DNA from: an uncultured Tropicimonas sp.
Lineage (GTDB): Bacteria > Pseudomonadota > Alphaproteobacteria > Rhodobacterales > Rhodobacteraceae
Length of the DNA: 64,000 nucleotides
NCBI GenBank assembly: GCA_947495685.1
Contig: CANLZY010000013.1
Span: 1-64,000, forward strand
Direction: 5' to 3'
The notes under the pieces: model-generated
What the model was told of the DNA's origin: nothing
What the model saw: the letters and a program-made list of their open reading frames with translations, nothing else
Databases searched by the model: none
Program-made: the position numbers and the translations under genes
Part shown: positions 367 through 17,451 of the stretch, one piece after another
Position numbering within the stretch: the stretch's first letter is position 1
How the letters are laid out: each line of letters begins with the position of its first letter

Positions 367-1197
367 ATGACACACACATTCACCAGCGCCGATCTTGTCG
401 GCATTGCCCTCGGGCTTGGGCTTGCCGCCATTGTTGCAGGATTGATTGCGGGGTTTCTGGGCGTCGGAGGCGGTATTGTCCTTGTCCCGGTGCTGTTCTG
501 GCTTTTCACCCTGATCGATTTTCCGCAGGAGTTGTCCATGCACATGGCGGTTGCCACGTCGCTGGCAACGATCATCTTCACCTCGGTGTCCTCTGTTCGG
601 GCCCACCACGGACGAGGGTCGGTCGACCTTTCCCTTGTCCGGTCCTGGGCCATCCCGATCGGGCTTGGCGCCCTGTCGGGCGGGTTGCTTGCCCGTTTGA
701 TCGATCCGGACGGGTTGAAGGTGGTCTTTGGTGTCGTGGCGCTCTGTGTGGCCGTCAACCTCGCCACGCCGAAGTCGCTGGTCGTGTCGGATCATCTGCC
801 AACGTCGAAACCGCTGAACGTGACAATCGCAGGCACCATCGGGCTGGTCTCGTCCCTCATGGGGATTGGCGGCGGGACCCTCGGCGTGCCGACCCTCGTG
901 GCGTTCTCGGTCCCGATCCGGATGGCGGTCGGAACCGCAGCGGCCTTCGGATTGATCATCGCGCTGCCCGCCGTGGCAGGTTTCGTGTTTTCGGGTTGGG
1001 GAATTCCGGGTCGGCCGCCGGCGTCGCTCGGATACGTCAGCCTCCCGGCCGTCGCCATCATCATTCCGTTCACGATCTTTCTGGCACCGATTGGCGCACG
1101 TTTTGCCCACAGCGTCGACGGCAAGTGGGTCAAGCGCGGGTTTGCGGCGTTTCTCGCAGTGACCGCAGTGCGAATGCTCGCTTCTGCCTGGGGCTAG
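367..1197 (+). CDS. TauE/SafE family sulfite/sulfonate-type membrane permease
   Basis: This 276-aa, strongly hydrophobic protein has the internal two-fold symmetry of the TauE/SafE family (formerly DUF81). The glycine-rich signature GFLGVGGGIVLVPVL lies in the first half and a matching GIGGGTLGVPTLVAF in the second. About eight membrane helices are expected. Family members are proposed to export sulfite, sulfonates or related organic anions; the substrate here cannot be read from sequence. I start it at the ATG preceded by GAGGGACAG. A TTG 99 bases upstream would add a polar extension with no membrane character. It precedes the degraded hyp gene remnants and carries no frame damage. Confidence 0.85.
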   Translation: MTHTFTSADLVGIALGLGLAAIVAGLIAGFLGVGGGIVLVPVLFWLFTLIDFPQELSMHMAVATSLATIIFTSVSSVRAHHGRGSVDLSLVRSWAIPIGLGALSGGLLARLIDPDGLKVVFGVVALCVAVNLATPKSLVVSDHLPTSKPLNVTIAGTIGLVSSLMGIGGGTLGVPTLVAFSVPIRMAVGTAAAFGLIIALPAVAGFVFSGWGIPGRPPASLGYVSLPAVAIIIPFTIFLAPIGARFAHSVDGKWVKRGFAAFLAVTAVRMLASAWG

Positions 1198-1334
1198 GTG
1201 GGGCCCTGCCCGTCAGGAAAGGGCTGACATTTTGGCAGGCTGCGAGCCGGGACGGGCGACATCACAGCTGCCGGACATAGCTGCCTGAACGGGCATAGAT
1301 TAGAGAAACGGCAGAACACTCAGTTCTGGTAGGC

Positions 1335-1583
1335 TTGCAGACGTCAAGACCTGGGAGGATCCATCGTTTGTCTGGCGGTTCAGAGCGCCTTCGTAGCATC
1401 GATAGTGTGAAGGCCGTCTGCGAAGCAGTCGGCCTGGTACGGGACGAGAACCTCTTTCTGCTTCAGCACGATGCCCCCGCTCCGGGGGATTGTGTGCTCG
1501 TCGATGTCAGGTATTTCATCAAGAAGGTGGCCGAGGCGGCATGGCCTGCAGCTTGGCCCTCCCGTCGCAAGCCGGTGGCGCCG
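1335..1583 (+). pseudogene. hypC: Degenerate hypC (hydrogenase maturation chaperone) remnant
   Basis: The translation keeps a HypC-like layout: PGRIHRLSG near the start, then SERLRSIDSVKAVCEAVGLV, then DAPAPGDCVLVDVRYFIKKV, matching the family pattern of PGRI, VD-x-G-V and GDYVLVHVGFAIxK. The Met-Cys start needed by HypC to hand the Fe(CN)2CO unit to HypD is gone: the first codons read Leu(TTG)-Gln. The conserved VHVGFA is VDVRYF. The frame stays open and runs into a hypA-like start. I read it as a dead hypC copy. The similarity is judged from memory of the family, not from a search. Confidence 0.6.
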
Positions 1584-1660
1584 ATGCATGAGGTCTCCCT
1601 CTGACGGGCGGTGATCGACCAATTCGACGTCATCGTCGGGAGGCCCATGTGTTGGCGGTG
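1584..1660 (+). pseudogene. hypA: Vestige of hypA (nickel insertion protein) start
   Basis: ATG begins the peptide MHEVSL followed at once by TGA. HypA proteins start MHEMSL, and the His at position 2 binds nickel, so this looks like the first six codons of hypA. The following bases encode no HypA body, although RPMCWRCDG vaguely recalls the zinc-binding CxxC loop. Most of the gene appears to have been deleted. The call rests mainly on position between hypC and hypB remnants and is tentative. Confidence 0.45.
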
Positions 1661-1731
1661 CGACGGGTGAGCGTGCGGGTCGACACGCGCTTCGGGAGGC
1701 GATCGTCCGGCGACTTGCCGGAATACGGTGT

Positions 1732-2269
1732 ATGGCGGTCATCGTCAGGGACCTTCAATTCGATAGCGATACCAATCGCTTGCGGGCTTTTGGTCGAGCA
1801 GGTTTGTACCGGAATTGCGTGTCACCTGAATGCGGCCATGGTCAAGTTGGCCCTGGGCCGGGTGGCTCCCGGCGGGGTGGACATCCGGTGCATCGAGAGC
1901 GTCGGCAACCTTGCCTGTCCGGCTTGTGTCGATCTAGGACAGCATTTCAACATCGCACTGCTGTCGACCCCGAAAGGCGATAACAAACCGTCGAAAAGGC
2001 CGGTGACGTTTCGCGCGGCGGACCTGGTGCTGTTGACCACGCGCGATGAGGCACCGGTGATGTTTGAGTTCGATCGGGGGCAGACGCGCAAGTGGGTCCG
2101 ACACTTGAGGAATACGGCCACGGTTGCGGGCGCGTCGGCGCGAGTGGTTTCAGGGATGGTCGACTGGAGCGACTGGTTGGCCGCTGCCATTGATGCGTTG
2201 CGATCCCGGGTTCGGATCATGACCGCTTGCGGCAGGCATCAACGCTCCATCTCGCAGGCCGGTCTGTGA
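1732..2269 (+). pseudogene. hypB: Frameshifted, N-truncated hypB (nickel-insertion GTPase) remnant
   Basis: Two reading frames together spell the C-terminal two thirds of HypB. One gives VIVRDLQFDSDTNRLRAFG (family: V-x-GD-x-x-T-x-x-D-x-x-R-I-R-A-x-G). After a frameshift near 1790-1805 the other gives QVCTGIACHLNAAMV, then CIESVGNLACPACVDLGQ, then LSTPKGDNKPSKRPVTF, then GMVDWSDWL. These match the HypB order TG-x-x-CHLDA-x-MV, IENVGNLVCPA-x-x-DLGE, EG-x-DKPLKYP and SGEGM-x-x-W-x-x-WL. The P-loop half and the His-rich N-terminus are absent. Metal-site Cys and His are partly kept, but the frame is broken, so no working GTPase can be made. Confidence 0.75.
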
Positions 2270-2289
2270 AGTATCCTGCCAGAAAGGGT

Positions 2290-2745
2290 CGCAATCATCC
2301 CCGGCTCCGATTGCCTCGTCTGCGTTTGCCCCAAGCAGGACACACGGCAGGCGATCAAATGGGCCCTGACCGGACAGACGGGGCGTGTTTTGCGGCGGGG
2401 TTCGAGGCGACGGCAGCGCCGATTGCGGCGATGTCGACATAGGGTGGGCCAGAACACCTGTGTGTCATGGCCTGGGCGTGGCGCTCATGGCCCGCGGTCA
2501 AGATGTTGCTGACCTCTGGCGACGGCGGGGTCGATGCGCTGATTGGGCCCGGACAGGTCTGCAGGGTGACCAACCCCGAAGAATGGGACAAGGCCCCGAC
2601 ACACACGGTGTGCCGACGGCGGTCGCCGGGTTCCATGCCACATCGCCGTTGGCCGCGATCCGTTTCGTGCGGAATCCAGTGCAAACGAGGCAACCACGGC
2701 TGGACAATTGTTACACTTCTGTGGTGACGTCCGGCGGATTTCCGG
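2290..2745 (+). pseudogene. hypD: Multiply frameshifted hypD remnant
   Basis: Fragments in successive frames follow the HypD order. RVAIIPGSDCLVCVCPK resembles the GPGCPVCVTP motif. DGACFAAGFEATAAPIAAMS resembles the VVFFAIGFETTAP-x-TA motif and ends at a stop. KMLLTSGDGGVDALIGPGQV resembles the L-x-x-GD-x-x-IDGFIGPGHVS motif. VPTAVAGFHATSPLAAI resembles VVAGFEPLDILQAI, with NCYTSVV (NQYTRVV) soon after. At least three frame changes are needed to join them. The N-terminal MEVCGGHTH region and the C-terminal 4Fe-4S cysteine region were not found. HypD normally works with HypC to build the Fe(CN)2CO group. Confidence 0.7.
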
Positions 2746-2805
2746 CGGCGCGGCAGCCGTTCGTGACGCGGGCGATTGACAGCGAACCGACGCTATCGTC
2801 ATCCG

Positions 2806-3990
2806 TTCATCACGTGCACCCAGTGCGGGCCGCGCCACACGGTCATAGGCACGATGGGGTAGTACCAGGCCAATACGGTGATGGCCGAATTCCCGATGCG
2901 AGCGGCCTTGCAGGCCGAACATGATGCCCTCAGCGACCGCCGCCGTCACGCTGAACCCATCGCTCGCCCGGACTGCGGCCCCGGAATTTGGTGCCGTGGC
3001 GCTGGTGACGCGGTAGTTCTGGGTGAACTGGCGCTGACGCGGGCTGGGCGGTCCTGATGGCGGGCGGCATCATCGCTCTTCGCGTGTAACCAGCGAGGCG
3101 GCCGCATCCGGGGTCAGGCCGCGCAAGGGATGCCCCGACAAGCCGCTTGCGGAGATCGACCGGCAAACCGATGCGGATGGGTTGGCGAAGATTCAGACCT
3201 TGGGACAGGTCGGTGCCCGTGCTGAAGACGGGTTGCGTGATCCGTCGTGGCCGGTTGCCCTGATCGCGCCCCGCCGGCCCAATGTACTGGCGCCATCGGT
3301 TGCACCCCGGGAGTGCCAAGGTCGGACTGTTCCTGCCGGGCTCTCTGCCGCGCCACCGGCTGCTGGGCCAGCCTGATCTTCCCGTGGTCGCCACCTCGGG
3401 CAACATCAGCGACGAGCGAATATGGGCTGATGTTGCGGGGGCCGACGCCGGGCTCGCCACCGTGGCGGACCTGTTTCTGCACCACGACCGGTCAATTGCC
3501 CGGCCAGCGGACGACCCGGTTCTGCGCCCGATCAGGAGTGGCCGGACGCCGTTGCGGCTGCGCCAAAGGACTGGATCTTGGGCAGCCTGTCGTGGCCCCT
3601 GTCCCGGGCGTAGGCGTTCTGACAGAGATGATCGTGACGTTCGGGTTCGGCCACCGGCGATTGTCTCGCCGCATCTGGAGATGTGAGATATCCCGCGCGT
3701 TGGCACGTCTTGGACGCTCCATCGACAGCTTGCAGAACCTGTGAGGCCCCTCGGCAGGGACGATCGTCTGCGCCCCCCACCTGTGGGTGGCGGCCAAAGA
3801 GTGGGCGTACCAGACTGGCCTCCCGGGGTCGGCGGTCCTGCACCATCACGCCCATGCGTCGATCTTGGTGGGCGAAACTGCCTCAACGACAGGCAACTGG
3901 CCGGTCCGTGCCTGGGGCGGACTCGGCTATGGCGAGGCCGCGCGCCGTAGAGGGGAAGGGCTTGGCGGGCGGTCGGGACGGTGGCGGGTC
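2806..3990 (+). pseudogene. hypF: Broken hypF (carbamoyltransferase) remnant
   Basis: At 2806 the text FITCTQCGPRHTVIGTMG, a TAG stop, then YQANTVMAEFPMRAAL and PIARPDCGP reproduces the HypF zinc-finger region (FINCTNCGPRYTI, PYDRPNTTMA, C-x-DCGP) with several cysteines lost. Then come RKGCPDKPLAEI and PSWPVALIAPRRPNVLAPSVAP. After a frameshift near 3310-3330 come PDLPVVATSGNISDERI and FLHHDRSIARPADDPVLRP, matching the YrdC-like domain. A further frame gives SAVLHHHAHASILVGE and WGGLGYG, the Kae1-like domain HHHAH motif. The acylphosphatase domain and the C-terminus are missing. About 1.2 kb remains, where an intact gene needs about 2.2 kb. Confidence 0.8.
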
Positions 3991-4189
3991 GCGATGTTTC
4001 GACCGCCGAGATGTGCCGGGACAGCCGCATGGACCTTCTCTCCACCTGCGCTCCTCTGGTGCCCCGGATACTCACCCCCCGGCGACTGCCCGCCCAATCG
4101 GCCGCGATGCTTCGATATCCCTTGACCGGGTGGTGGAAGGCGCGGCCAAAAGCGTAGAGAAAGGTTATCTGAACAGCGGACCGGCGCGG

Positions 4190-4644
4190 ATCACGATGGC
4201 GCACGAAAATGTTGGCCGTCTGACCCGAGAGCTGATTGAGGGAACGTTGGTGCGCAACTTGCGAAACCCGACGCTCGACATCTCCACAGATGCGGTCAGG
4301 GCGACGATCACAGGCAACCGATCATCGCCACCGGCGACGGTTTCACCGTTCAACCACTCGAATTTCCCGGCGGCACAACCCGCTCGCCGGCCGTGCAGTG
4401 AACGGTCACCGACCTTGCCGTGGGCGGGGCCGACCCTCTTGCGCTCATGCTCGCCCCCTTTATCAAAGAGGGGATCAAGGTACAGGAACCTGAACGGTTC
4501 ATCACCGATCTGGGCCGGGCGGCAGAGGATACCGGCGTGGCCCGCGTGGACGCCGACCCGGTTGGCCCGCGATGGCGATCGGGCTGGTTGATCCCGGTCA
4601 ACGCCAACGCTTCAGCTTTCGTTACCCTACGCCGGCACCACTGA
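4190..4644 (+). pseudogene. hypE: 3'-deleted hypE remnant
   Basis: ITMAHENVGRLTRELIEGTL with RNPTLDISTDAVRA matches the HypE start (I-x-LAHGGGGRAM-x-x-LI, NP-x-L-x-x-x-xDAA). In a second frame GDGFTVQPLEFPGGT matches TTD-x-FVV-x-PLFFPGGDIG, then an in-frame TAG. It continues as TVTDLAVGGADPLALMLAPFIKEGIKV, the TVNDLAVGGA-x-PL-x-x-S-x-x-FIIEEG segment. After GVARVDADPV only a few codons remain before the P-type ATPase leader. More than half of hypE, including the C-terminal thiocarboxamide-forming Cys, is gone. The FNR-like box of the next gene lies inside this remnant. Confidence 0.75.
4588..4601. promoter_or_regulatory. FNR/FixK-type box upstream of the P-type ATPase gene
   Basis: TTGAT-CCCG-GTCAA matches the TTGAT-N4-ATCAA anaerobox at nine of ten defined positions. 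It sits 59 bases before the ATPase ATG. It is followed by CGCCAACG, and the 13 bases GTCAACGCCAACG recur exactly at 12431-12443. Fnr/FixK family regulators bind such sites under low oxygen; which regulator acts here is inferred only. Confidence 0.65.
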
Positions 4645-4660
4645 ATCAGGAGGCGGGTGC

Positions 4661-7198
4661 ATGCAACGTGGTCTCAATGAGCGTGACGTCGCCGGGCTTC
4701 GCCGGGAGCACGGCTGGAACGAATTGCCGGAGGGCAAGCCGCCGTCCGCGCTGTTCATGCTCGCAAAGCAATTCTCCGACCTGCTCGTGGTGTTGCTGAT
4801 CGTGGCGGCGATCATCTCGCTCGTGGTCGGGGAACTGGCGGATTCCATCGCGATTTTTGCGGTTGTCCTGCTGAATGCCGTTCTCGGTTTCGTCCAGGAA
4901 TGGCGGGCTGAAAACACGATGCAGGCCTTGCGGCGGATGCTGTCACCAGAGGCCCTGGTGGTCCGGGATGGAATCGAACACACAATCCCCGCCCGCGAGA
5001 TCGTACCGGGTGACCTGATCCTGCTGGCCGAAGGAGACAGGATTCCGGCCGATGCCGTTGTCACGCGGGAGGCCGGGTTGATGGTGGACGAAAGCGTCCT
5101 GACCGGCGAATCCGTGCCAGTCTCGCGTGCGTCGGGCGATGACGTTGCGTCGGGCACGACCATTCTGGGCGGCCACGCCGAGGCCAGTGTCACCCGGATC
5201 GGGCAGGAAACACGGTTTGGCCAAATTGCCACGATGACCGCTTCGGTGCGCGACACGCCGACACAATTGCAGCGAGAGATGCACGGGCTGGCCCAGCAAC
5301 TGGGGATGCTGGCCATCGGGGCGGCGGCGGTGATCATGATCGCCGCGTTTTGGGCGGATCGTGGCCCGATGCAGGTGTTCATGCTGGGCCTGTCTCTGGC
5401 GGTGGCGATGGTGCCCGAGGGGTTGCCTGCGGTGGTGACGGTCACGCTGGCGCTCGGCGCTGCGGCAATGGCCAGACAACAGGCGCTGGTGCGGAACCTG
5501 CGCGCGGTGGAGACTCTCGGCGCAGCGAGTGTCATCTGCACCGACAAGACCGGCACGCTGACGGAAAACAAGATGACCGCCAGCGTGATCCGGAGCGCCG
5601 ACGCGGAATACATCGTGACAGGCAGCGGTGGCGACCCTGCGGGGCACGTTGCGGTCAATGGGGAAAAGGTGCGCGCCGCCGCCGATCCAGTGTTGGCCGG
5701 TCTGTGTCAGACCGCGCAGATATGCTCTCATGCCCGCCTGATCCGTACAGACACCGGCTGGAACATGATCGGAGAACCGACCGAAGGCGCTTTGGTGATG
5801 CTGGCGGCCAAGGCATGGGCTGATCCGGTGGAACCCGACAAGATTGTCGCGGAACTGCCGTTCACCAGTGATCGCAAGCGGATGAGCGTTCTGGAACGGC
5901 ATTCCGACGGTTGGACGGTGCACACCAAGGGCGCGCCCGAGCGGATCCTGCAGATCTGCACCCAGGTTCAGACCGCCGACGGCCCTGTGCCGATGCAAGA
6001 CGATCAACGCGCCGCAATCACCACCGCCATCGAACGTATGGCCGAACAAGGCCTTCGCACGATCGCGCTTGCCTCCCGATCGGTCGGGCAGGAACGGATC
6101 GAGGAGGCAGACCTGGCGTTTCTCGGGCTGGTCGGGATGGTGGACCCCCCGCGCGAAGAGGTACGGGACGCCGTCCGCCTGGCAGCCCGGGCCGGGATCC
6201 GCACGATCATGATCACGGGCGATCACCCGGCCACGGCCCGCCACATCGCCGGCCTGCTGGACATTCCGGCCGAACGTGCCCTGACCAGCGCCGACCTTGC
6301 CGGAATGGACGATGATGCCCTGACACAGGCGTTGCGCGGCGATGTCGTCTTTGCCCGCGTTCAACCGGCCGACAAGCTGCGGATCGTCGCCGCGTTGCAG
6401 GCCGGTGGCGCGGTGGTGGCAATGACCGGAGACGGCGTGAACGACGCGCCCGCATTGAAAAAGGCGGATATCGGCCTGTCCATGGGCATCCGTGGCACCG
6501 AGGTGGCCAAGGATGCCTCCGACCTTGTGCTGCTGGACGACAATTACGCGACGATCGTGCGTGCTGTGCGCGAAGGCAGGCGACAGTTCGAGAACATCCG
6601 CAAATTCGTGCGGTACCTGTTGTCCTCCAACACCGGCGAAGTCATCGCGTTGCTGGCCAACTTGCTGATCGGGGGGCCGCTGATCTTTTTGCCGACGCAA
6701 ATTCTCTGGATGAACCTCGTCACCGACGGCGTGACGGCGGTGGCGCTCGGTCTGGAAAAGTCGGAACCGGGCCAGATGCAGGTGCCGCCGCGCGATCGGC
6801 ACAAGCGGCTGCTGGACATGTCGGCGCTGCCGATCATTCTGGCCTTCGGGATGTACACCGGCGGTGCCAGCCTGTGGATATTCTACAGCCTGCTGGATGC
6901 CGGAACCGACCTGGCCCGAACAGCGGCCTTCACCGGGATGGTCCTGTTCGAAAAGGTCAGCGTCTTTGCCTTTCGCTCGCTGCGAGACCCGTGCTGGAAA
7001 ATCGGATGGCTCACGAACCCGGCGCTGTTGCTGGCGTTTGCAGCGATGGTGTTCGCGCAGGTCGCGGCGGTCTATTGGTCCCCACTACAAGTGCTGCTGC
7101 ACACCACCGCGCTCGGCAGGGGCGAGTGGGAAATGATCCTGATCCTCGCCCTGCCGCTCGTCATCGTGCCGGAACTTGTCAAGATGATCCGGCGGTGA
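4661..7198 (+). CDS. P-type (PII, calcium-pump-like) cation-transporting ATPase
   Basis: This complete 845-aa P-type ATPase couples ATP hydrolysis to cation movement across the inner membrane. It shows an actuator-domain TGES ([10 protein letters not shown], about residue 148), the phosphorylation site [12 protein letters not shown] (Asp near 295), an N-domain KGAPE (TKGAPERIL) and the hinge [18 protein letters not shown]. The TM4 motif [11 protein letters not shown] and TM6 segment [13 protein letters not shown] are those of the PII (SERCA/PMR1-like) group, pointing to Ca2+ or a related divalent ion rather than heavy metals. An FNR-like box precedes it, and a GGAGG-rich ribosome site lies just before the ATG. 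Such pumps occur in proteobacterial low-oxygen gene clusters, which fits the neighbourhood. The transported ion is unproven. Confidence 0.9.
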
Positions 7199-7211: not shown

Positions 7212-7460
7212 TCATGCCGCCAAGCGCGTTGCGAGGTAGGCGGCTGCCAGTGCGGGGGTGGCGATCTGGATGTAGTCTGGCTCCGGAATGTCCACGCCGA
7301 ACCGGACGTGCAGCGCGGCAACCAGGTTCAGCACATCCATCGAATCGAGCTCCAGATCGTCCTGTATATGGTCGGTGTCGCTGATGCCTTCCGGGTCCAG
7401 GTCCGGTGCGACCTTCACCAACTCTTCGAGGAATGCGGTGCGGATGTCGTCATGTGTCAT
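7212..7460 (-). CDS. Acyl carrier protein
   Basis: This small acidic 82-aa protein has the phosphopantetheine attachment motif ELDSMDVLNLV, with Ser near position 40 as the modified residue. It is not the fatty-acid-synthase AcpP, because it sits outside a fab cluster. It is the last gene of a four-gene minus-strand operon (ligase, E1, E2, ACP), and its ATG overlaps the E2 stop as ATGA, implying translational coupling. Context suggests it accepts or carries an acyl group made by the ligase or the 2-oxoacid dehydrogenase. A phosphopantetheinyl transferase is not encoded nearby. Identity as a carrier protein is firm; the cargo is inference. Confidence 0.85.
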   Translation of the reverse strand: MTHDDIRTAFLEELVKVAPDLDPEGISDTDHIQDDLELDSMDVLNLVAALHVRFGVDIPEPDYIQIATPALAAAYLATRLAA

Positions 7461-8635
7461 AGGGCCTCCGGTGTTTGCAGCAATGTGTCGATCTCGGCGA
7501 GGAACCTGTTGGCCTGTCGGCCATCGCTGACGCGGTGGTCCGCCGAGAGCGTGAAGGTGATGAGTCTGCGCGGCACGACGGCGCCGTCCACGACCCAGGG
7601 CCTGAGCTTTGGCGCGCCGATTGCCAGCAACGCGACCTGCGGCGGAAAGATGATGCCGGCCATCGCGTCCGCTCCCGACTCTCCGAGGCTGGAGACGGTG
7701 AGCGTTCCGTTCGACATTTCGGAAGACCGCAGGCGCATGGCGCGCGCGCGGGCCACGAGGTCCTTCATCGCCGCCATCAGGTCTGGAAGGGCAAGGGTGT
7801 CGGCCCTGGGGATCGCTGGCGCGATCAGCCCGCCGCCCCGCAGGGCAACCGCAACGCCAAGGTTGACGTCAGGCGCCGGCGTAAACCCGTCCGGGCCATA
7901 GTGCCCGTTCATCTCGCTCACCTTGCCAGCCGCAAGCGCTGCTGCTTTCATGAACAACGCCCCGAGCAGGATGCGCTCCGCCGGGGGTACGGCTGCGTTG
8001 CGCTCAGCGAGCCAATCGGCTGCGGTCTGGATCTCCACGGTCTGAGACAGTTGGAAATGCGGGATCTCGCGTTTGGAGCGCTGCATGGCGCTGGCAATCG
8101 CCTTGCGCATTTCCACCATCGGGCTGGCAGGTGCCTTGGTGGGGGACACAACCGCTCCGGGCCCGCCCGCCGGGACATCACCCAGCACGATCGCGCCGCC
8201 GGGGCCGCTCCCTGCAACGCTGGCAAGGTCAACACCGCGTTCGGCTGCCAGTTTCCGGGCCGCTGGCGACGCAGCGACCCCCGTTGTCAGCGGCGCGGGT
8301 TTTGGCACGTCGGGCGCGGGCGTCGGTGCAACCGCTACCGTCGGTGTTGCGTCGACAGCCGGGATGACAGGCGCCACCGGAGCAGACGGCGGCGCCTCCC
8401 CTTCGGCCAGGATCGTCGCCAGCGGCGCGCCAACCGGCAGCTTGCTGCCAAGGTCCGCGTCCAGCGACTGGACGATCCCGTCCTCGAAGATCTCGATCTC
8501 GATGGCACCCTTCTGGGTCTCGACCACCGCGACGATATCGCCGCGATGCACAGTTTCACCCGGGTTCACCAGCCATTCGACCAGCGTCCCGTCTTCCATG
8601 TCGGCGCCCAGCGAGGGCATCTGGAACACACCCAT
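7457..8635 (-). CDS. Dihydrolipoamide acyltransferase (E2) of a 2-oxoacid dehydrogenase
   Basis: This 392-aa E2 has three parts. The N-terminal lipoyl domain carries the lipoyl Lys in VETQKGAIEIE (Lys42). A Pro/Ala-rich linker leads to a short peripheral-subunit-binding domain (ASPAARKLAAERGVDLASV). The catalytic domain ends in the active-site motif SADHRVSDG (His near 367). It would take the acyl group from the neighbouring fused E1 and transfer it to CoA, giving acetyl-CoA if pyruvate is the substrate. The gene starts two bases after the E1 stop and overlaps the ACP start. No E3 lies in the operon, so E3 must come from elsewhere. Acetoin dehydrogenase E2 is a close alternative. Confidence 0.88.
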   Translation of the reverse strand: MGVFQMPSLGADMEDGTLVEWLVNPGETVHRGDIVAVVETQKGAIEIEIFEDGIVQSLDADLGSKLPVGAPLATILAEGEAPPSAPVAPVIPAVDATPTVAVAPTPAPDVPKPAPLTTGVAASPAARKLAAERGVDLASVAGSGPGGAIVLGDVPAGGPGAVVSPTKAPASPMVEMRKAIASAMQRSKREIPHFQLSQTVEIQTAADWLAERNAAVPPAERILLGALFMKAAALAAGKVSEMNGHYGPDGFTPAPDVNLGVAVALRGGGLIAPAIPRADTLALPDLMAAMKDLVARARAMRLRSSEMSNGTLTVSSLGESGADAMAGIIFPPQVALLAIGAPKLRPWVVDGAVVPRRLITFTLSADHRVSDGRQANRFLAEIDTLLQTPEAL

Positions 8636-8637
8636 GG

Positions 8638-10631
8638 CTACCTCCGTGCAAGCGTGGCTTTGGCCGCCGCAACAATCTGCGGCACCTGCGGGATCGCGGC
8701 CTGTTCGAGGTGGGCCGGATAGGGGATCGGCACTTCGGCCGAACAGACGCGTTCGACCGGCGCATCCATATGCCAGAACACCTGTTCGTGGATGCGGGCC
8801 GCGATTTCAGCCGAAAGCGAGCCGCTTTTCCAACCTTCGTCGACGATCACCGCACGCCGGGTGCGCCCGACCGAGGCCATGATCGTGGCATCGTCCAGCG
8901 GGCGCAGAACCCGCAGGTCGATCACCTCGGCCTCGATACCCTCGGCTGCCAGCACGTCGGCCGCCTCCAGCGCCTTGTGGAGCGACCCGCCATAGGTGAT
9001 GAGCGTGACGTCCTTGCCCTTGCGCCGGATTGCCGCCTTGGCGATGTCCACCGGTCCGGCATTGGTGTCCAGCGGTCCGGTGCGGTTGTAGAGCATGACG
9101 TTCTCGAAGATCAGCACCGGGTCCGGGTCTTCCAGCGCGGTCCAGAGCATGCCGCGGGCGTCCTCCAGCGTGGCCGGTGTCAGCACCTTCAGGCCCGGGA
9201 TATGGGCGAACCAGCCCTCCAGCGAATGCGAGTGCTGGGCGGCAAGTTGCTTGCCCGCGCCGGTGGCCATCCGGATCACCACCGGCACGCCAAACTGTCC
9301 GCCGGACATGTGGCGCACGGTTGCGGCGGTGTTGAGGATCTGGTCGAGCGCCAGCAGCGAGAAGTTCACCGTCATGACTTCGACGATGGGGCGCATGCCG
9401 GCGGCAGCCGCACCGATCCCGGCACCGGTGAACCCGGATTCGGACAGCGGCGTGTCGCGGATACGATCCTCGCCGAACTCTTCCATCAGCCCCTTGGAGA
9501 CAGCATAGCAACCGCCATAGGCCCCAACGTCCTCGCCCATCAGGAACACCCGGTCGTCGCGGATCATCGCATCGCGGATGCCCTGCTTGACGGCCTCGCG
9601 ATAGGTGACCTCCTCGGTCTGGCCGGATGGCGCGGCGGGCACCGGATCCGGGCGCGGCTCGGCCATCGTGTGGGTCAACAGGTCCGTTTCGGCTTCCCAC
9701 GTCCCGGCTTCGGCAAAGGCCACGGCCTGTGCAATTTCCGCGTCAACCGTCGCCTCGATACGGGCAACGTCCTCGGGGTGCAGCAATCCGTTCTCCAGCA
9801 ACCAGGTCTGGAACTGGAGAATGGGCCCGCGTTTGCGCCACGCCTCGATCTCTTCCTTTGTCCGATAGAGCTGAGCGTCGAACATCGAATGCGGCCGGAA
9901 CCGGTAGGTTCTGCATTCCAGGAACACCGGCTTGCCGGTTTCGCGGATGTGCCGGATGGCGGCCCGGGCCGCCGCCTCGACCGCGACCACATCCATCCCG
10001 TCCACCGCGTGGGCTTCCATCTTGTAGGCAGCCGCCTTGTCGTGGATGTCGGTCTCGGATTCATACCGCTCGATTGCGGTGCCCATGGCATAGCCGTTGT
10101 TCTCGCAGACAAACAGCACCGGCAGATCCCACAGCGCGGCGAGGTTCATCGCCTCGTGGAACTCGCCCTCGGCCACCGCGCCGTCGCCAAAGAAACAGGC
10201 GGTGACGTGGTTGTCGCCCCGCATCCTGTCCGCCAGCGCGATGCCCACGGCCAACGGCAACCCGCCGCCGACGATGGCATTGCCGCCATAGAAATTGGTC
10301 GCGGAGTCAAAGATATGCATCGACCCGCCGCGCCCGCCCGAGCAGCCCTCGGCCTTGCCGTACATCTCGGCCATCACCCGGTCCATCGGCACCCCGCGGG
10401 CCAGCGCCTGGCCGTGTTCGCGATAGGTGGCGACGATCTTGTCGTCGGGCTCAAGGACGGGGATCACCCCGGCGGCAATCGCCTCCTCTCCGTCATAAAG
10501 GTGGAGGAAGCCGCGGATCTTCTGCTGCTGATACAGTTCGGCGCATTTGTCCTCGAACTTCCGGATGCGGATCATGCCTGTCAGGAGCGACAGGACGTGG
10601 TCACGCGTGAGATGCGGTTTGTCGATCACGT

Positions 10632-10635
<4 letters not shown>
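8638..10635 (-). CDS. Fused E1 alpha-beta 2-oxoacid (pyruvate/acetoin-type) dehydrogenase
   Basis: One 665-aa chain joins both E1 subunits. The first half is an E1-alpha: [11 protein letters not shown], the [11 protein letters not shown] segment and the thiamine diphosphate motif beginning [15 protein letters not shown] and ending ENN. After a short Pro/Ala-rich linker near residues 330-345 comes an E1-beta: [44 protein letters not shown] and the C-terminal LRPLD with VDEGWKSGS. Alpha2-beta2 E1s of this kind usually come as two genes. Candidate substrates are pyruvate or acetoin; the adjacent acetyl-CoA-synthetase-like ligase and PEP synthase favour pyruvate. The ATG overlaps the ligase stop as ATGA. 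It does not look like the housekeeping pdhA-pdhB-pdhC arrangement. Confidence 0.88.
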
Positions 10636-12374
<1,739 letters not shown>

Positions 12375-12421
12375 GTCGGATTCCTCCCGACCAATTGTCG
12401 CACTTCAGAACGGGCTTCGCC

Positions 12422-12435
12422 ATGATTCACGTCAA
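12422..12435. promoter_or_regulatory. FNR/FixK-type box in the divergent ligase/hydrogenase promoter region
   Basis: ATGAT-TCAC-GTCAA matches TTGAT-N4-ATCAA at eight of ten positions. It is followed by CGCCAACGACCG, nearly the same flank as at the boxes before the ATPase and the PEP synthase. It lies 48 bases from the ligase start and 125 bases from the hydrogenase start, so one site could serve both directions. Confidence 0.6.
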
Positions 12436-12559
12436 CGCCAACGACCGCAGGATCGAGAACCATGGGGGTGGAGTCCCGAGGCAAACGATGTGGCCGCGAC
12501 TCGGGGAGGGAGGCAGGCGGCGGGAGCGCGACGGATCGCTCTCGCCGCTGGAGGACGTC

Positions 12560-13645
12560 ATGGCTGACGGGTACATTTTGCGCGATCCGCGCGCGTTGGT
12601 CGGTGCCTTGCTTGAGGCAGGGTGGCGGGTGATTGCGCCGCTTGAACGGGACGGATCGCTGACGCCAGAAGTGGTGTCAGCGCCAGACGAGCTTCCCTGC
12701 GGGCTTGTCGATATGCAGGCCCCCGGGGCCTATCGTTTGCAGCAACAGGACTCCGGGCGCTGGTTTGATGCCGTCGTAGGGGCTCAGGGGTGGAAGCGTT
12801 GGTTGCACCCGGCAGAGCGAAGACTCTGGACGGCCAGACGTGACGCCGACGGATTTTCCATCGCGCCCGCGGCGGAGGTATGGCCACCTACCGTGTTTTT
12901 TGGAGTACGTCCCTGCGATCTGGCCGCGATCGCGCGGCAGGCCGAGGTGTTCCGGCAGGCAGGCGATCCCGCCTATGGAGAACGGCTGGCGGCAACGCGG
13001 ATCGTGGCGGTCAACTGCACGCGGGTGGCAGAGACCTGTTTTTGCGCCTCGATGGGCACCGGGCCGGGGGTGTCGGCTGTGGTCGATGTTGCGTTGACCG
13101 AACTGGAACAGGGGCTGCTGGTCGATTGCGGCACGGCAAATGGAGCTGCGCTCCTGAGGGGGATGGATCTGGCGACGGCCGCCCCGGCGGACATCGCCGC
13201 CGCACGCGCCGCCGTGGAAGCCGCCGCGCGGGACCAGATCCGGGCCATGCCGCCCGACATTGCAGACCGTTTGCAAAGGGCCAGCGAGTCCCCACGCTGG
13301 CAAGAGATCGCGGCGCGTTGCCTGCATTGCGCCAATTGCACCCTTGTCTGCCCGACCTGTTTCTGCACCGACGTCACGGATCGCTCTGACCTTGCCGGGG
13401 ACCATGCCGAACGCTGGCAGCGGTGGGACAGCTGCTTTTCGCCCGAGTTCAGCTATCTGCACGGCGGGGCCGTCCGACGCAGCGTGGCGGCACGTTATCG
13501 CCAGTGGATAACGCACAAGCTCTCCACCTGGCATGACCAGTTCGGCACTTCCGGCTGCACAGGCTGCGGGCGCTGCATCACATGGTGTCCGGTGGGCATC
13601 GACCTGGTTGCGGAGGCACGGGCCTTCGCGGAGGAGGAGGCATAG
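12560..13645 (+). CDS. hydB: NiFe hydrogenase group 3b beta subunit (iron-sulfur, sulfite reductase A-like)
   Basis: This 361-aa protein belongs to the family of sulfhydrogenase beta subunit and anaerobic sulfite reductase subunit A. Two 4Fe-4S ferredoxin motifs are visible near the C-terminus: [16 protein letters not shown] and [17 protein letters not shown] further [18 protein letters not shown] segment is typical of the family. It would relay electrons between the flavin (gamma) and small (delta) subunits in a soluble cytoplasmic complex. The ATG was chosen because GGAGG sits six bases before it; the open frame reaches further upstream without coding character. It is first of six tightly packed genes (this subunit, cNMP-binding protein, gamma, delta, alpha, protease). 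Confidence 0.88.
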
Positions 13646-13648
13646 ACC

Positions 13649-14119
13649 ATGGACATCCAGAGCATTCAGGACCTTCTGACGGAGCACCCGATCCTGGGGC
13701 GTTTCGATACTGCATCGCGGGAACTTCTGGTCGGCTGTGCCCGCAATCACCATTTCGGGGCCGGGGAAATGATCCAGACAGAGGGCGATCCCGCCGACCT
13801 CGTGCATGTGCTGCGCAAAGGGGATGTCGCAATCGAGATCGCGGCGGCGCATCTTGCCCCTGTCATCGTCGAGACAGTGCATGGCGGCGATATTCTGGGG
13901 TGGGGCTGGCTGATCCCGCCCTATCGGACCATGTACGACGCCCGCGCCCTGACCGAGGTCAGCTGTGTCAGCCTCGACGCGGCCTGTCTGCGCGGGAAAT
14001 GCGACGACAACCCGATGCTGGGCTACCAGATGTTCAAGTACTGGCTGCCGCATCTGGCGGCCCGGTTCCGGGCGCAGCGGTTGCAGGTGGTCGATCTGTA
14101 TGGCGAAGGCCGTGACTGA
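13649..14119 (+). CDS. Stand-alone cyclic nucleotide-binding-domain protein within the hydrogenase operon
   Basis: This 156-aa protein consists essentially of one cNMP-binding beta-roll (residues about 15-120: [20 protein letters not shown], then [13 protein letters not shown]). It has no helix-turn-helix after it, unlike Crp/Fnr regulators. It is embedded between the beta and gamma subunit genes, three bases after the former and overlapping the latter. A regulatory or assembly role for the complex is plausible; direct DNA binding is unlikely. The [16 protein letters not shown] stretch replaces the usual phosphate-binding cassette residues, so cAMP binding itself is doubtful. Confidence 0.8.
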
Positions 14120-14957
14120 CCAGGCCAGAATATCCAGCTCACTCTTGCCGCGGAGGTTCCGGGTCCAACAGGCCTGGCCGGAGTCGGCGACGATTACCTC
14201 GCTCGCCCTGTCGCCGCTGGAGGGGCCGGTGCCGTCGTTCCGGGCCGGGCAGTTCAACATGCTCTATGCTTTCGGGGTGGGCGAGGCCGCGATTTCGATC
14301 TGCGGCGACCCTGACAGTGGAGACCTGTTGCACACGATCCAGAATGTCGGGCCGGTGTCCGGCGCGTTGTGCGACCTGATGGCAGGGGATGTTGTGGGGG
14401 TGCGGGGGCCATTCGGGTCTGGCTGGCCCTTGGCCGACCAGAGCGGGCGCGACCTGTTGTTCGTGGCAGGAGGGCTTGGCCTTGCGCCGCTTCGACCGGC
14501 GATCCTGCAGGCACTGGCCATGCGGGACACCTTCCGATCCGTCACGTTGCTGGTGGGCGCGCGATCCCCGACGGACCTGCTGTATCCGGCGCAACTCGCC
14601 GATTGGGCGGCAGGTGACGGGTTGGAGCTGGCCATAACCGTCGACCGGGGGCCGCCGGGATGGACCGGAATGGTCGGCGTCGTCACCAACCAGCTTGCGC
14701 GGGCCTTGCAGGGGCGCGACCCGGCCAGTGTGAGCGCCTGTGTCTGCGGGCCCGAGATCATGATGCGCCACACCTGCCTGACGCTGTGCGACGCCGGCGT
14801 GCCAGCCGCTGCACAGTGGATCAGCCTGGAGCGCAACATGAAATGCGCCATCGGCACCTGCGGGCATTGCCAGTTCGGCGCCGATTTCGTCTGCCGCGAT
14901 GGTCCGGTGTTTCGATGGGACAAGGTCGCGGCGCGTCTCAGGATTGCGGAGATCTGA
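14100..14957 (+). CDS. hydG: NiFe hydrogenase group 3b gamma subunit (FAD/NAD(P)-binding reductase)
   Basis: This 285-aa protein has the ferredoxin-NADP-reductase fold of the sulfhydrogenase gamma subunit. An FAD domain (FRAGQFNMLYAFGVGEAAISI) is followed by an NAD(P) domain (LLFVAGGLGLAPLRPAI). The C-terminal [2Fe-2S] motif is CAIGTCGHCQFGADFVC. It exchanges electrons between NAD(P)H and the iron-sulfur relay. Two starts are possible, ATG at 14100 and GTG at 14112. Both overlap the preceding gene, which suggests translational coupling. DHOD electron-transfer PyrK-like proteins share the fold, but the operon settles the role. Confidence 0.87.
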   Translation: MAKAVTDQARISSSLLPRRFRVQQAWPESATITSLALSPLEGPVPSFRAGQFNMLYAFGVGEAAISICGDPDSGDLLHTIQNVGPVSGALCDLMAGDVVGVRGPFGSGWPLADQSGRDLLFVAGGLGLAPLRPAILQALAMRDTFRSVTLLVGARSPTDLLYPAQLADWAAGDGLELAITVDRGPPGWTGMVGVVTNQLARALQGRDPASVSACVCGPEIMMRHTCLTLCDAGVPAAAQWISLERNMKCAIGTCGHCQFGADFVCRDGPVFRWDKVAARLRIAEI

Positions 14958-14959
14958 GC

Positions 14960-15727
14960 ATGGAACGACCCCGGATCGCGATTTGGAAGTTTGCCTCCTG
15001 CGACGGGTGCCAACTGGCGTTGCTCGATTGCGAAGACGACCTGCTCGCGCTCGCCGGGGTGATCCGAATCGCGCATTTTCCCGAAGCCAGCAGTCGGACC
15101 GAGGAGGGTCCCTACGATATCTCCTTTGTCGAAGGCTCGATCACGACGGAAGAGGATGTCCGCCGCATCCAGGAGATCCGCGCGGCTTCGGCGGTGCTGG
15201 TGGCGATCGGCGCCTGTGCAACAGCGGGCGGTATCCAGGCGTTGCGCAACACGATGGACCTTGGGGACCTGTCCGCCGCAGTCTATCCCGAGCCCGGTTG
15301 GCTCGACGTGCTCGCCACATCGACACCCATCGCCGATCACGTGACCGTGGATGCGGAACTGCGGGGGTGCCCGGTGTCCAAGGTGCAGCTTGTGGAGTTC
15401 ATCGCCGCGACCTTGGCAGGGCGGACGCCGGACCTGCCGGATGTCTCGCAATGCGTCGAGTGCAAGCGCGCGGGATCGATCTGCGTGATGGTCGCGGCGG
15501 GCATTCCCTGCCTTGGGCCGGTCACCCGGGCAGGTTGCGGAAACCTGTGCCCCCGCATCGGGCGAGGGTGCTACGGCTGTTTTGGGCCGGTCACGGGTGC
15601 CAATTGCGCGGCCTTGACGGCGCAACTGCGCGGCCTTGGTCTCGATGAGGCGGCGATTGGCGCGCTGTATCGGAGCTTCAATGCCGGGGCGGCGGCGTTT
15701 GCCACGGAGGCCAAGGCCGATGTCTGA
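14960..15727 (+). CDS. hydD: NiFe hydrogenase group 3b delta (small) subunit
   Basis: The 255-aa small subunit carries the cysteine pattern for iron-sulfur clusters: CDGCQLALLDCE at the N-terminus, GACATAGG, the GCPVSK segment, and the C-terminal CVECKRAGSICVM, CLGPVTRAGCGNLC and GCYGCFGP. There is no Tat signal peptide, which fits a cytoplasmic group 3 enzyme. It passes electrons between the NiFe site of the alpha subunit and the beta subunit. The start lies two bases after the gamma stop, and its end overlaps the alpha start by eight bases. All expected ligands appear intact, in contrast to the wrecked maturation genes to the left. Confidence 0.9.
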   Translation: MERPRIAIWKFASCDGCQLALLDCEDDLLALAGVIRIAHFPEASSRTEEGPYDISFVEGSITTEEDVRRIQEIRAASAVLVAIGACATAGGIQALRNTMDLGDLSAAVYPEPGWLDVLATSTPIADHVTVDAELRGCPVSKVQLVEFIAATLAGRTPDLPDVSQCVECKRAGSICVMVAAGIPCLGPVTRAGCGNLCPRIGRGCYGCFGPVTGANCAALTAQLRGLGLDEAAIGALYRSFNAGAAAFATEAKADV

Positions 15728-17009
15728 ACGTACCATCACGGTCAAGGTGCTGGCGCGCGTGGAGGGCGAAGGGGCGTTGCACATCCGCATGCGCGGCGAC
15801 GATGTGGAGATCGCCGAATTCAGGATCTTTGAACCGCCACGGTTTTTCGAAGGTCTGATGCGTGGTCGGCAGGCCAGCGAGGCGCCCGACATCACCAGCC
15901 GCATCTGCGGGATCTGCCCTGTCGCCTATATTTCCAGCGCCAGTCAGGCCGTCGAGCAGGCCTATGGGATTGAGATATCGCCGGAAATCGCTGCCCTGCG
16001 CCGCTTGATGTATTGCGGCGAGTGGATCCAGAGCCATGTGCTGCACGCCGCGATGCTGCATGCGCCGGACTTCCTTGGGCTGCACGACATCATCGCCATG
16101 TCAGAAGTGGAACCTGATCTGGTGCGTCAGGCGCTGCGCCTGAAAAAGCTCGGCAATAGCCTGATGGAAGTTGTCGGTGGGCGTGCGGTGCATCCGGTCA
16201 ACACCCGCGTCGGCGGGTTCTTCAAGGCACCGCCCGTCGCGGAGATCGCGGCGTTGATCCCGGAGCTGCTCTGGGGGATCGACGCGGCTCGGGAATTGGC
16301 ACTGCGGTTTTCGGCTTTCGAGTTTCCGCCCGACGCTGGCGCGTATACCTTTGTCGCACTGGTGCATCCGGAGGTCTATCCGATCGAAACCGGGCGGATC
16401 GCCTCGAGCACCGGCCTTGATATCCCGGTGGAAGCGTTCCACGAGCATTTCCTGGAGGAACAGGTAGAACGATCGACAGCCCTGCACGGACGGATGCGGG
16501 ATGGCCGGGCGTATCTGGTCGGCCCGTTGGCGCGCTATGCCCTCAACCGGGAGCGTCTGACACCGTCGGCGCGGGAGACAGCCGAGGCCTGCGGTCTGGG
16601 CGCTGTCGAGCGCAACCCGTTCCGGTCGATCCTCGTGCGGATGGTCGAGGTCCAGTACGCCTGCGAAGAGGCATTGCGCCTTGCTCGGGCCTATGTGCCG
16701 CCCGATCCGCCGGCCGTGACGGCGCCGGTCCGGGAGGGCACCGGTCAGGGCTGCACCGAGGCGCCACGGGGCCTTTGCCATCATCGATACCAGATCGACG
16801 CAGACGGGCGAATTCTCGACGCGACCATCGTGCCGCCAACGTCGCAGAACCAACCACAGATCGAGGCCGACCTGCTGCGGGTGGTGCGGCAATCGCGCGA
16901 TCTGGACGATGCCGCCCTGCAATGGCGGTGCGAGCAGACGATCCGCAACTACGATCCCTGCATCTCCTGCGCGACGCATTTCTTGACCCTGACGGTCGAC
17001 CGTGACTGA
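15720..17009 (+). CDS. hydA: NiFe hydrogenase group 3b alpha (large, catalytic) subunit
   Basis: This 429-aa large subunit has both nickel-binding motifs, RICGICPVAYISSASQ (N-terminal) and DPCISCATH (C-terminal), so all four Ni/Fe cysteines are present. Nine residues follow the His of DPCISCATH, the expected peptide removed by the protease encoded next. Start VKVLARVEGEGALHI is the usual RVEGEG region. Overall architecture matches sulfhydrogenase / NADP-reducing group 3b enzymes (H2 + NADP+ to NADPH + H+, reversible). Fe(CN)2CO assembly needs HypCDEF, but only remnants of those are seen here, so intact copies must lie elsewhere if the enzyme works. Confidence 0.92.
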   Translation: MSERTITVKVLARVEGEGALHIRMRGDDVEIAEFRIFEPPRFFEGLMRGRQASEAPDITSRICGICPVAYISSASQAVEQAYGIEISPEIAALRRLMYCGEWIQSHVLHAAMLHAPDFLGLHDIIAMSEVEPDLVRQALRLKKLGNSLMEVVGGRAVHPVNTRVGGFFKAPPVAEIAALIPELLWGIDAARELALRFSAFEFPPDAGAYTFVALVHPEVYPIETGRIASSTGLDIPVEAFHEHFLEEQVERSTALHGRMRDGRAYLVGPLARYALNRERLTPSARETAEACGLGAVERNPFRSILVRMVEVQYACEEALRLARAYVPPDPPAVTAPVREGTGQGCTEAPRGLCHHRYQIDADGRILDATIVPPTSQNQPQIEADLLRVVRQSRDLDDAALQWRCEQTIRNYDPCISCATHFLTLTVDRD

Positions 17010-17451
17010 CCGCACGCTGCACATCGGTCTCGGCAACCCGATGCGGCGGGACGACGGCGTCGGCCCGTGGCTGGCAGGCAGGTTGGCCGAGGGCGGGCTG
17101 CGGGCACGCGAATGGCCGGGGGATGGGAGCGGTCTGATCGACCTGTTTGCCGCCGAGCCACACATCGTGTTGATCGACGCCACCCGCAGCGGCGCCTCGC
17201 CGGGTACCGTGCACAGGCTCGACGCGGTACGGACCCTGATCCCGCGCCCATTGTTCCACAATTCCACCCACGAGTTCGGTCTTGCCGAGGCGGTCGAGGT
17301 GGCACGGCGGTTGGGTCAGTTGCCGGACAGCCTGATCGTGCTTGGAATCGAGGGCGCGGATTTCACCTTCGGCGCAGGGCTGTCGCCCGCCGTGCAGGGT
17401 GCGGCTCAGAGGCTGAAGGCAGAACTGCTTGGCCCGACGGCGACCCGATGA
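17002..17451 (+). CDS. Hydrogenase maturation endopeptidase (HycI/HyaD family)
   Basis: This 149-aa protease has the family start LHIGLGNPMRRDDGVG (G-N-x-x-R-x-DDGVG, with the nickel-sensing acidic residue), VLIDATRSG, and a His in FHNSTHEFGL. It clips the C-terminal peptide off the alpha subunit after nickel insertion. It starts at a GTG that overlaps the alpha stop by eight bases and closes the operon. The reading frame is intact, so it has not shared the decay of the upstream hyp remnants. Confidence 0.88.
   Translation: MTDRTLHIGLGNPMRRDDGVGPWLAGRLAEGGLRAREWPGDGSGLIDLFAAEPHIVLIDATRSGASPGTVHRLDAVRTLIPRPLFHNSTHEFGLAEAVEVARRLGQLPDSLIVLGIEGADFTFGAGLSPAVQGAAQRLKAELLGPTATR

Follow-up and report, generated by a model that had tools for sequence, protein, structure and literature searches.

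A dead hypCABDFE operon near an intact group 3b-type hydrogenase whose maturation has probably been handed over to a second hyp set

How can a hydrogenase stay intact when the maturation genes lying closest to it are dead? This question is raised by a stretch of 64 kilobases (kb), hereafter the window, which forms the beginning of contig C13 (CANLZY010000013.1) in the assembly of an uncultured Tropicimonas sp. (5.64 Mb, 189 contigs). Near its start lie the remains of a hyp maturation operon, referred to below as the relic, and 7.7 kb downstream a [NiFe] hydrogenase that we take to be of class 3b. A first-pass annotation, made from the window alone, had suggested that maturation was lost first while the enzyme lingers. 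The evidence gathered here favours another answer, namely that maturation has probably been handed over rather than lost first: it is likely that a redundant hypCABDFE set died and that the Hyp proteins encoded on a different contig, C23, now mature the 3b enzyme in trans, together with its own protease.

Searching the window by tblastn with the intact C23 Hyp proteins as queries recovers remains of hypC, hypB, hypD, hypF and hypE in that order, all on the + strand and within 1366-4620: HypC at 1386-1529 (E 4e-8), HypB at 1709-2227 (E 9e-48), HypD in three pieces at 2168-2756 (best E 4e-27), HypF in four pieces at 2785-3936 (E 7e-52) and HypE in two pieces at 4184-4620 (E 2e-25). Their best pieces score 43.9, 164, 79, 77 and 88 bits, respectively, against maxima of 18.9-30.8 bits in 200 dinucleotide shuffles of window positions 1300-4660, used as the chance control. 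HypA, with 21.2 bits against a shuffle maximum of 25.4, falls below the chance ceiling, so that the hypA call rests on its place and on a short start at 1584. The resulting order, C-A-B-D-F-E, matches that of hypCABDFE sets, the A slot being assigned by position. Whole-genome hidden Markov model searches independently recover relic pieces of hypD and hypF, some with internal stops, and the NCBIfam hypB model matches the open reading frame (ORF) at 1649-2269 with E 6e-30, albeit below its cut-off (104.3 of 121.2 bits). Pfam is less sensitive: of the seven relic pieces submitted, four, including the HypB ORF, are without a match at E 0.1, HupF_HypC (E 0.0018) and HypF_C (E 0.065) match below cut-off, and one HypF piece exceeds the cut-off for Sua5_yciO_yrdC (3e-10). 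The first-pass report of six broken remnants in order is therefore borne out for the five genes that rise above the shuffles, including HypB, HypD, HypE and HypF, on whose detection by translated searches of this span it had made its reading depend, and holds for hypA by position only.

Positions 1366-4620 are the relic of a dead hypCABDFE operon copy, not a working operon: where open frames and catalytic residues would be expected, every gene is broken and the Walker A motif of HypB is altered (Table 1). In hypC, the Val-Cys-Leu-Ala-Val stretch containing the Cys2 codon can still be read at 1366-1380, out of frame with the remainder; the earlier statement that HypC had lost this residue applies only to the frame open from TTG 1368. 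The frame-tolerant alignment of hypA extends weakly to 1723. No stop interrupts the hypB remnant across 1709-2227, its first 71 or so residues are without a match, and the Gly-Lys-Thr of Walker A reads Gly-Arg-His in another frame upstream, in a weak piece at 1675-1794. The join between HypB and HypD sits at an Asp-Trp-Leu stretch that is alike in the two intact proteins, and a deletion between these similar stretches may have fused the two remnants. Further along, hypD carries two stops plus frame changes and hypE one stop plus frame changes. Compared with the 781-codon frame in G003, a genome that falls in the same genus as that of the window, hypF is missing about 145 start codons and 186 end codons, which removes the N-terminal acylphosphatase part and roughly the C-terminal quarter, and stops and frame changes lie between its pieces.

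Table 1. Coordinates of the hyp relic, its flanking genes and the 3b hydrogenase cluster in the window
Feature	Position	Strand	Remarks
TauE-family gene	367-1197		flanks the relic upstream; frame open
hypC remnant	1366-1556	+	start codon gone; frame change near 1385; His-Val-Gly of the intact protein now Asp-Val-Arg
hypA remnant	1584-1640	+	gene start with in-frame stop; by position, not significant alone
hypB remnant and hypD start, fused in frame	1649-2269	+	206-aa ORF
hypD remnant	2168-2756	+	three pieces; about 52 internal and the last 113 or so codons missing or unrecognisable
hypF remnant	2785-4068	+	pieces 2785-3018, 3038-3307, 3306-3560 and 3634-3936, weaker beyond
hypE remnant	4184-4620	+	two pieces; C-terminal half including C-terminal Cys missing
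Calcium-type P-ATPase	4661-7198		flanks the relic downstream; frame open
3b beta (HydB/ShyB-like) iron-sulfur subunit	12296-13645	+	up to about 90 first codons may be non-coding
Small 3b-cluster protein	13649-14119	+	partial match to encapsulin 2B shell model, below cut-off
3b gamma (HydG/ShyC-like) FAD/NAD(P) subunit	13965-14957	+	true start probably internal
3b small subunit (HydD/ShyD-like)	14957-15727	+	12 invariant Cys retained
3b large subunit (HydA/ShyA-like)	15720-17009	+	ends DPCISCATH-FLTLTVDRD
Hydrogenase maturation endopeptidase (HycI family) of 3b cluster	17002-17451	+	

Decay was measured at sites identical in all six intact CABDFE sets of the genus, with leave-one-out controls on those six. 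The relic is changed at 176 of 629, 188 of 709 and 68 of 165 sites in codon positions 1, 2 and 3 (28%, 27% and 41%), compared with 1-5%, 1-5% and 13-22% in the controls. At the 571 codons whose amino acid is invariant in the six sets, it keeps 349, changes 217 and has stops at 5. Its pairwise ratios of non-synonymous to synonymous divergence (dN/dS) to the intact sets are 0.31-0.41, at synonymous divergences (dS) of 1.1-1.6, near saturation. The decay is largely unconstrained and appears to be old. With about half of its residues changed, the relic seems old, yet some 3.2 kb of it persists in order, where quicker removal would be expected of a bacterial pseudogene.

The hydrogenase downstream is a different matter. 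Its four subunits (12296-17009) lie in one cluster, and their best NCBIfam models are sulfhydrogenase or related (6e-35 to 2e-69), all below cut-offs. The frames are open and every Cys invariant in 14 relatives is kept; the large subunit retains C63, C66, C414 and C417, the two CxxC nickel-iron ligand pairs, likewise invariant in the 14 and followed by the tail, and the endopeptidase retains D17, D18, D59, H90 and E96. Computed against G003, Aliiruegeria sabulilitoris and G001, at dS of about 0.7-1.35, dN/dS is 0.136-0.146 (large subunit), 0.140-0.143 (small subunit), 0.19-0.26 (endopeptidase) and 0.23-0.31 (HydB and HydG). An NAD(P)-linked H2 activity is predicted for this enzyme. A small conserved protein lies between the beta and gamma genes in all 14 other 3b loci compared (37-82% identity), and the window's own product at 13649-14119 is presumably cyclic-nucleotide-binding-like.

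The first-pass annotation, which was right that hydrogenase and endopeptidase are intact, had also raised the prospect of a second hyp set elsewhere, and one was found. Contig C23 carries hypCABDFE in this order, with all six genes intact and the parts lost from the relic present; HypB, C, D, E and F exceed their NCBIfam cut-offs, and HypA is over that of Pfam and 1.5 bits under that of NCBIfam. It is the one full set in the genome, in which one HypC match, one full HypD and one full HypF were found, all on C23; the other two HypD matches and three of the five weak HypF matches are the relic, and the remaining two weak HypF matches lie on C12 and C30. The set adjoins a HybD-like endopeptidase, DsrE-family genes, a sulfur-transport gene, a hydrogenase large subunit, a CCG/4Fe-4S protein, a frame of up to 329 aa without a Pfam match and a small subunit with a twin-arginine translocation (Tat)-like start. 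This second hydrogenase, which we take to be hynS-isp1-isp2-hynL-like, after Thiocapsa, and of class 1e, has its own endopeptidase, separate from that of the 3b cluster.

A remote hyp set is not peculiar to this genome. The search covered nine genomes of the genus; eight of them carry a PF00374 hydrogenase, and HypD is present in exactly these eight. The 3b large subunit occurs in six of the nine, with identities of 79-80% in G001 and G003, 71% in G005, 55% in G002 and 53% in G004. In G001, G003 and G005, the 3b enzyme is the only PF00374 hydrogenase (E 1e-5), and a single CABDFE set, hereafter an orphan set, is unlinked to it, lying about 525 kb away in G001, on another contig in G003 and about 114 kb away in G005. 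Since three 3b-only genus mates each have one unlinked set, a remote hyp set is common in the genus. No shared neighbours of the orphan sets were found in the 20-kb stretches fetched. The other arrangements are a 3b enzyme with a hyp set of the other Hyp type beside it (G004), a 3b enzyme with other hydrogenases and two hyp sets (G002), and the hynSL type with CABDFE and without 3b (G008). Beyond the genus, HypB matches to the relic in 394 family genomes (E 1e-20 or better, outside its own genome) are 36-44% identical, G006 being the only other genus member with a match in this draw; only the own genome among 385 class genomes passes 1e-100 for C23 HypD; and nine others among 398 phylum genomes have a HypD that is 57-68% identical to that of C23. 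Outside the class, four HypD matches of the CABDFE type (L146, L147, L148 and L150) are listed with one internal stop, perhaps just the gene end.

We infer from these sequences that the 3b enzyme is made and active, that it is matured in trans and that redundancy was the cause of the decay. The genome would have held two CABDFE sets where one was sufficient, and the one near the 3b cluster would have decayed. What is left would yield nothing useful, with most of HypA, the P-loop and N-terminus of HypB, the acylphosphatase of HypF and the C-terminal parts of HypD, HypF and HypE gone. The 3b hydrogenase would stay in use, Fe(CN)2CO and Ni most likely reaching it in trans from the C23 HypCABDFE proteins, and the last step, the trimming of the large-subunit tail, would fall to the cluster's own endopeptidase. 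The endopeptidase gene would have been kept intact, unlike the hyp genes, because tail trimming needs the enzyme's own protease. Soluble hydrogenase I (SHI) of Pyrococcus furiosus belongs to the group 3b class. As is predicted for the window's enzyme, it has four subunits and is cytoplasmic and NADP-dependent, and foreign Hyp proteins suffice: SHI is active in Escherichia coli with the Hyp proteins of the host and only its own protease, FrxA (PMC2865534). That result comes from a construct made in the laboratory rather than from a natural hand-over following the death of genes.

Several points weigh against this reading. Accessory proteins are reported to be usually specific to the hydrogenase with which they co-evolved, and HoxYH of Thiocapsa roseopersicina was not matured by the Alteromonas set, a case in which its protease HoxW was also absent (PMC3102683). 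The dS values are near saturation (about 0.7-1.6), and NG86 was the sole method for most pairs. For the relic, a test of equal change over the codon positions fails (p 0.0007), and its branch therefore includes some time under constraint. Its placement hangs on a very long branch. Finally, the window begins at the first base of its contig, which holds no sequence further upstream.

Where the relic comes from matters to the argument, as it could also be a dead duplicate of the C23 set, derived from a duplicated or rearranged hynSL-type module, that never served the 3b enzyme. The two have the same gene order and type. The relic is 47.5-48.9% identical to the six genus CABDFE sets, near-equally to all of them, as a duplicate might be, and 41-45% to six same-type sets from outside the genus (three of which are without all six genes in the fetched stretch). 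With five sets of the other Hyp type, the identity falls to 30.8-32.7%; the relic is closer to the CABDFE type than to the other. Of 13 clean genus/outside sites, it agrees with the genus at 7, with the outside sets at 3 and with neither at 3, and at 37 sites with a genus-only state, the counts are 17, 7 and 13; because genus states outnumber outside states, it probably arose on the genus line. It has no adjoining hynSL-type structural genes, lying between TauE and the calcium-type ATPase upstream of the 3b cluster, and the orphan sets of the three relatives are likewise not beside such genes; the TauE gene itself did not turn up in the sequence compared around the orphan sets, which again suits a duplicate. 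Constrained topologies favour G003 (protein) or G005 (DNA) as its sister. In approximately unbiased (AU) tests, joining it to C23 gives 0.015 (protein) and 0.049 (DNA), and joining it to G008 or G002 gives 0.027 (protein) and 0.06 (DNA); the tests do not reject a place with G001, next to the orphans as a whole or next to the hynSL-linked group (0.053-0.145). By third-position difference, G003 is nearest (0.527) and C23 farthest (0.590), on the same very long branch. There are few clean diagnostic sites. Of the five in protein, the relic sides with the orphan group at 2 and with the hynSL-linked group at none; the figures for the 15 in DNA are 6 and 3.

The free trees disagree. With the six genus sets, the protein tree puts the relic with G003 (70.7/73) and then G005 (99.9/92), the DNA tree near G001/G005 (66.3/33), and the tree with six outside sets by G003 (29/48); a protein tree rooted with the other Hyp type, which drew the relic to the distant outgroup (1.6/20), gave no placement and was set aside. 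The constrained tests presume a backbone divided into two three-member groups, for which the free trees give no firm support, and the kinship claim is weak. The data thus hint weakly that the relic is kin to the orphan sets of the 3b-only relatives rather than a copy of the C23 set, and we regard a dead C23 duplicate as unlikely. The remaining explanations fare worse. The first-pass reading, taken to mean that the 3b hydrogenase has ceased to be matured or made and that its genes will go next, would fit the death of the closest hyp set; it is rendered improbable by the retention of all invariant Cys, a dN/dS of about 0.14 in large and small subunits, the complete C23 set and the 3b-only relatives that also manage with a remote set. 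A residual function of part of the relic, for example of its fused HypB-HypD frame, is very improbable: the ORF is open, and its HypB part is 57% identical over 143 residues to that of G005, but it starts in sequence without a HypB match, Walker A is altered and in another frame, and HypB is changed at 28% and 29% of sites in codon positions 1 and 2, much as the rest of the relic is. That an intact operon looks broken through sequencing or assembly errors, for which one could cite the single assembly behind the relic, is next to inconceivable, because the damage is extensive while the flanking frames of TauE and the calcium ATPase stay open: about half of the amino acids differ from the six intact sets, invariant codons are changed or turned into stops, and hundreds of codons are missing.

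If maturation of the 3b enzyme was indeed handed over, the event may belong to a wider pattern. It is plausible, in a fine balance, that Hyp machinery of the hynSL/Isp type took over 3b maturation in the genus: three species hold such a set with 3b as their only [NiFe] hydrogenase, and in the present genome the first set would have died, the hynSL-linked set would serve both hydrogenases and only the two endopeptidases would be private. C23 HypB, HypD and HypE are nearest those of G008 and G002, and C23 HypF is about equidistant (70-74%) from all; the tree of the rpoB region groups G003 with G008 and G000 with G001. As these affinities differ, the hynSL-linked sets do not simply follow the rpoB tree.

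The case is a tidy example of an already known kind. Bradyrhizobium sp. BTAi1 carries hypC, A, B, D, a protease gene, hypF and E on plasmid pBBta01 beside small and large subunits, its HypD being 63% identical to that of C23; it differs from the window in being annotated as intact, in having the protease within the row and in having no 3b enzyme in the stretch shown. Alteromonas macleodii 'Deep ecotype' has an intact set of the same six genes in the same order next to hynSL, whereas the relic is dead and upstream of a 3b cluster (PMC3102683). HypD in A. macleodii plasmid records, which may not be the locus of PMC3102683, is about 49% identical to C23 HypD. Rubrivivax gelatinosus CBS, like the window's genome, has two hyp sets, each near a different [NiFe] hydrogenase; unlike here, each is assigned to its neighbour, and decay is not mentioned in the sections available (PMC4257681). 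The open-access literature yielded no paper on a hydrogenase in Aliiruegeria, and none of the titles listed concerned the replacement of a decayed hyp set by a second one; such absence is weak evidence, given that only open-access literature was covered.

How specific the Hyp proteins are, HypC above all, matters in practice when [NiFe] enzymes are to be produced in foreign hosts, and this genome suggests that all six Hyp proteins are replaceable and the endopeptidase is not. Should the hand-over be true, it would be a natural test of enzyme-specific versus interchangeable maturation proteins. For annotation, the lesson is to search the whole genome before calling a hydrogenase operon without intact hyp neighbours non-functional.

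The surroundings of the relic offer some further observations. Its G+C content resembles that of the surrounding sequence, a repeat search around it gave nothing clear, and the 64-kb window has no tRNA genes. Relic and 3b cluster are separated (7457-12374) by genes encoding the E2 of a 2-oxoacid dehydrogenase, a fused E1 and an AMP-forming acyl-CoA ligase. Comparison of the locus with close relatives, also proposed at first pass, worked out for the hydrogenase, the 3b cluster and its neighbours (the E1 component, and a PEP synthase downstream) being syntenic in Aliiruegeria lutimaris and A. sabulilitoris; for the relic, it gave no Hyp match upstream of the calcium ATPase of A. lutimaris at 1e-4. 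A HypE-like match in A. sabulilitoris (L012 6275-6553, E 5e-4) was dropped, as comparison with the window leads one to expect the AMP-ligase there, on the opposite strand, and short HypB-like matches inside the small-subunit genes of relatives were dropped as chance or remote similarity. At the relic's place in A. lutimaris (L070 4217-5756), upstream of the calcium ATPase, there are SCP2 and U32-peptidase genes, which we presume may serve oxygen-independent ubiquinone synthesis.

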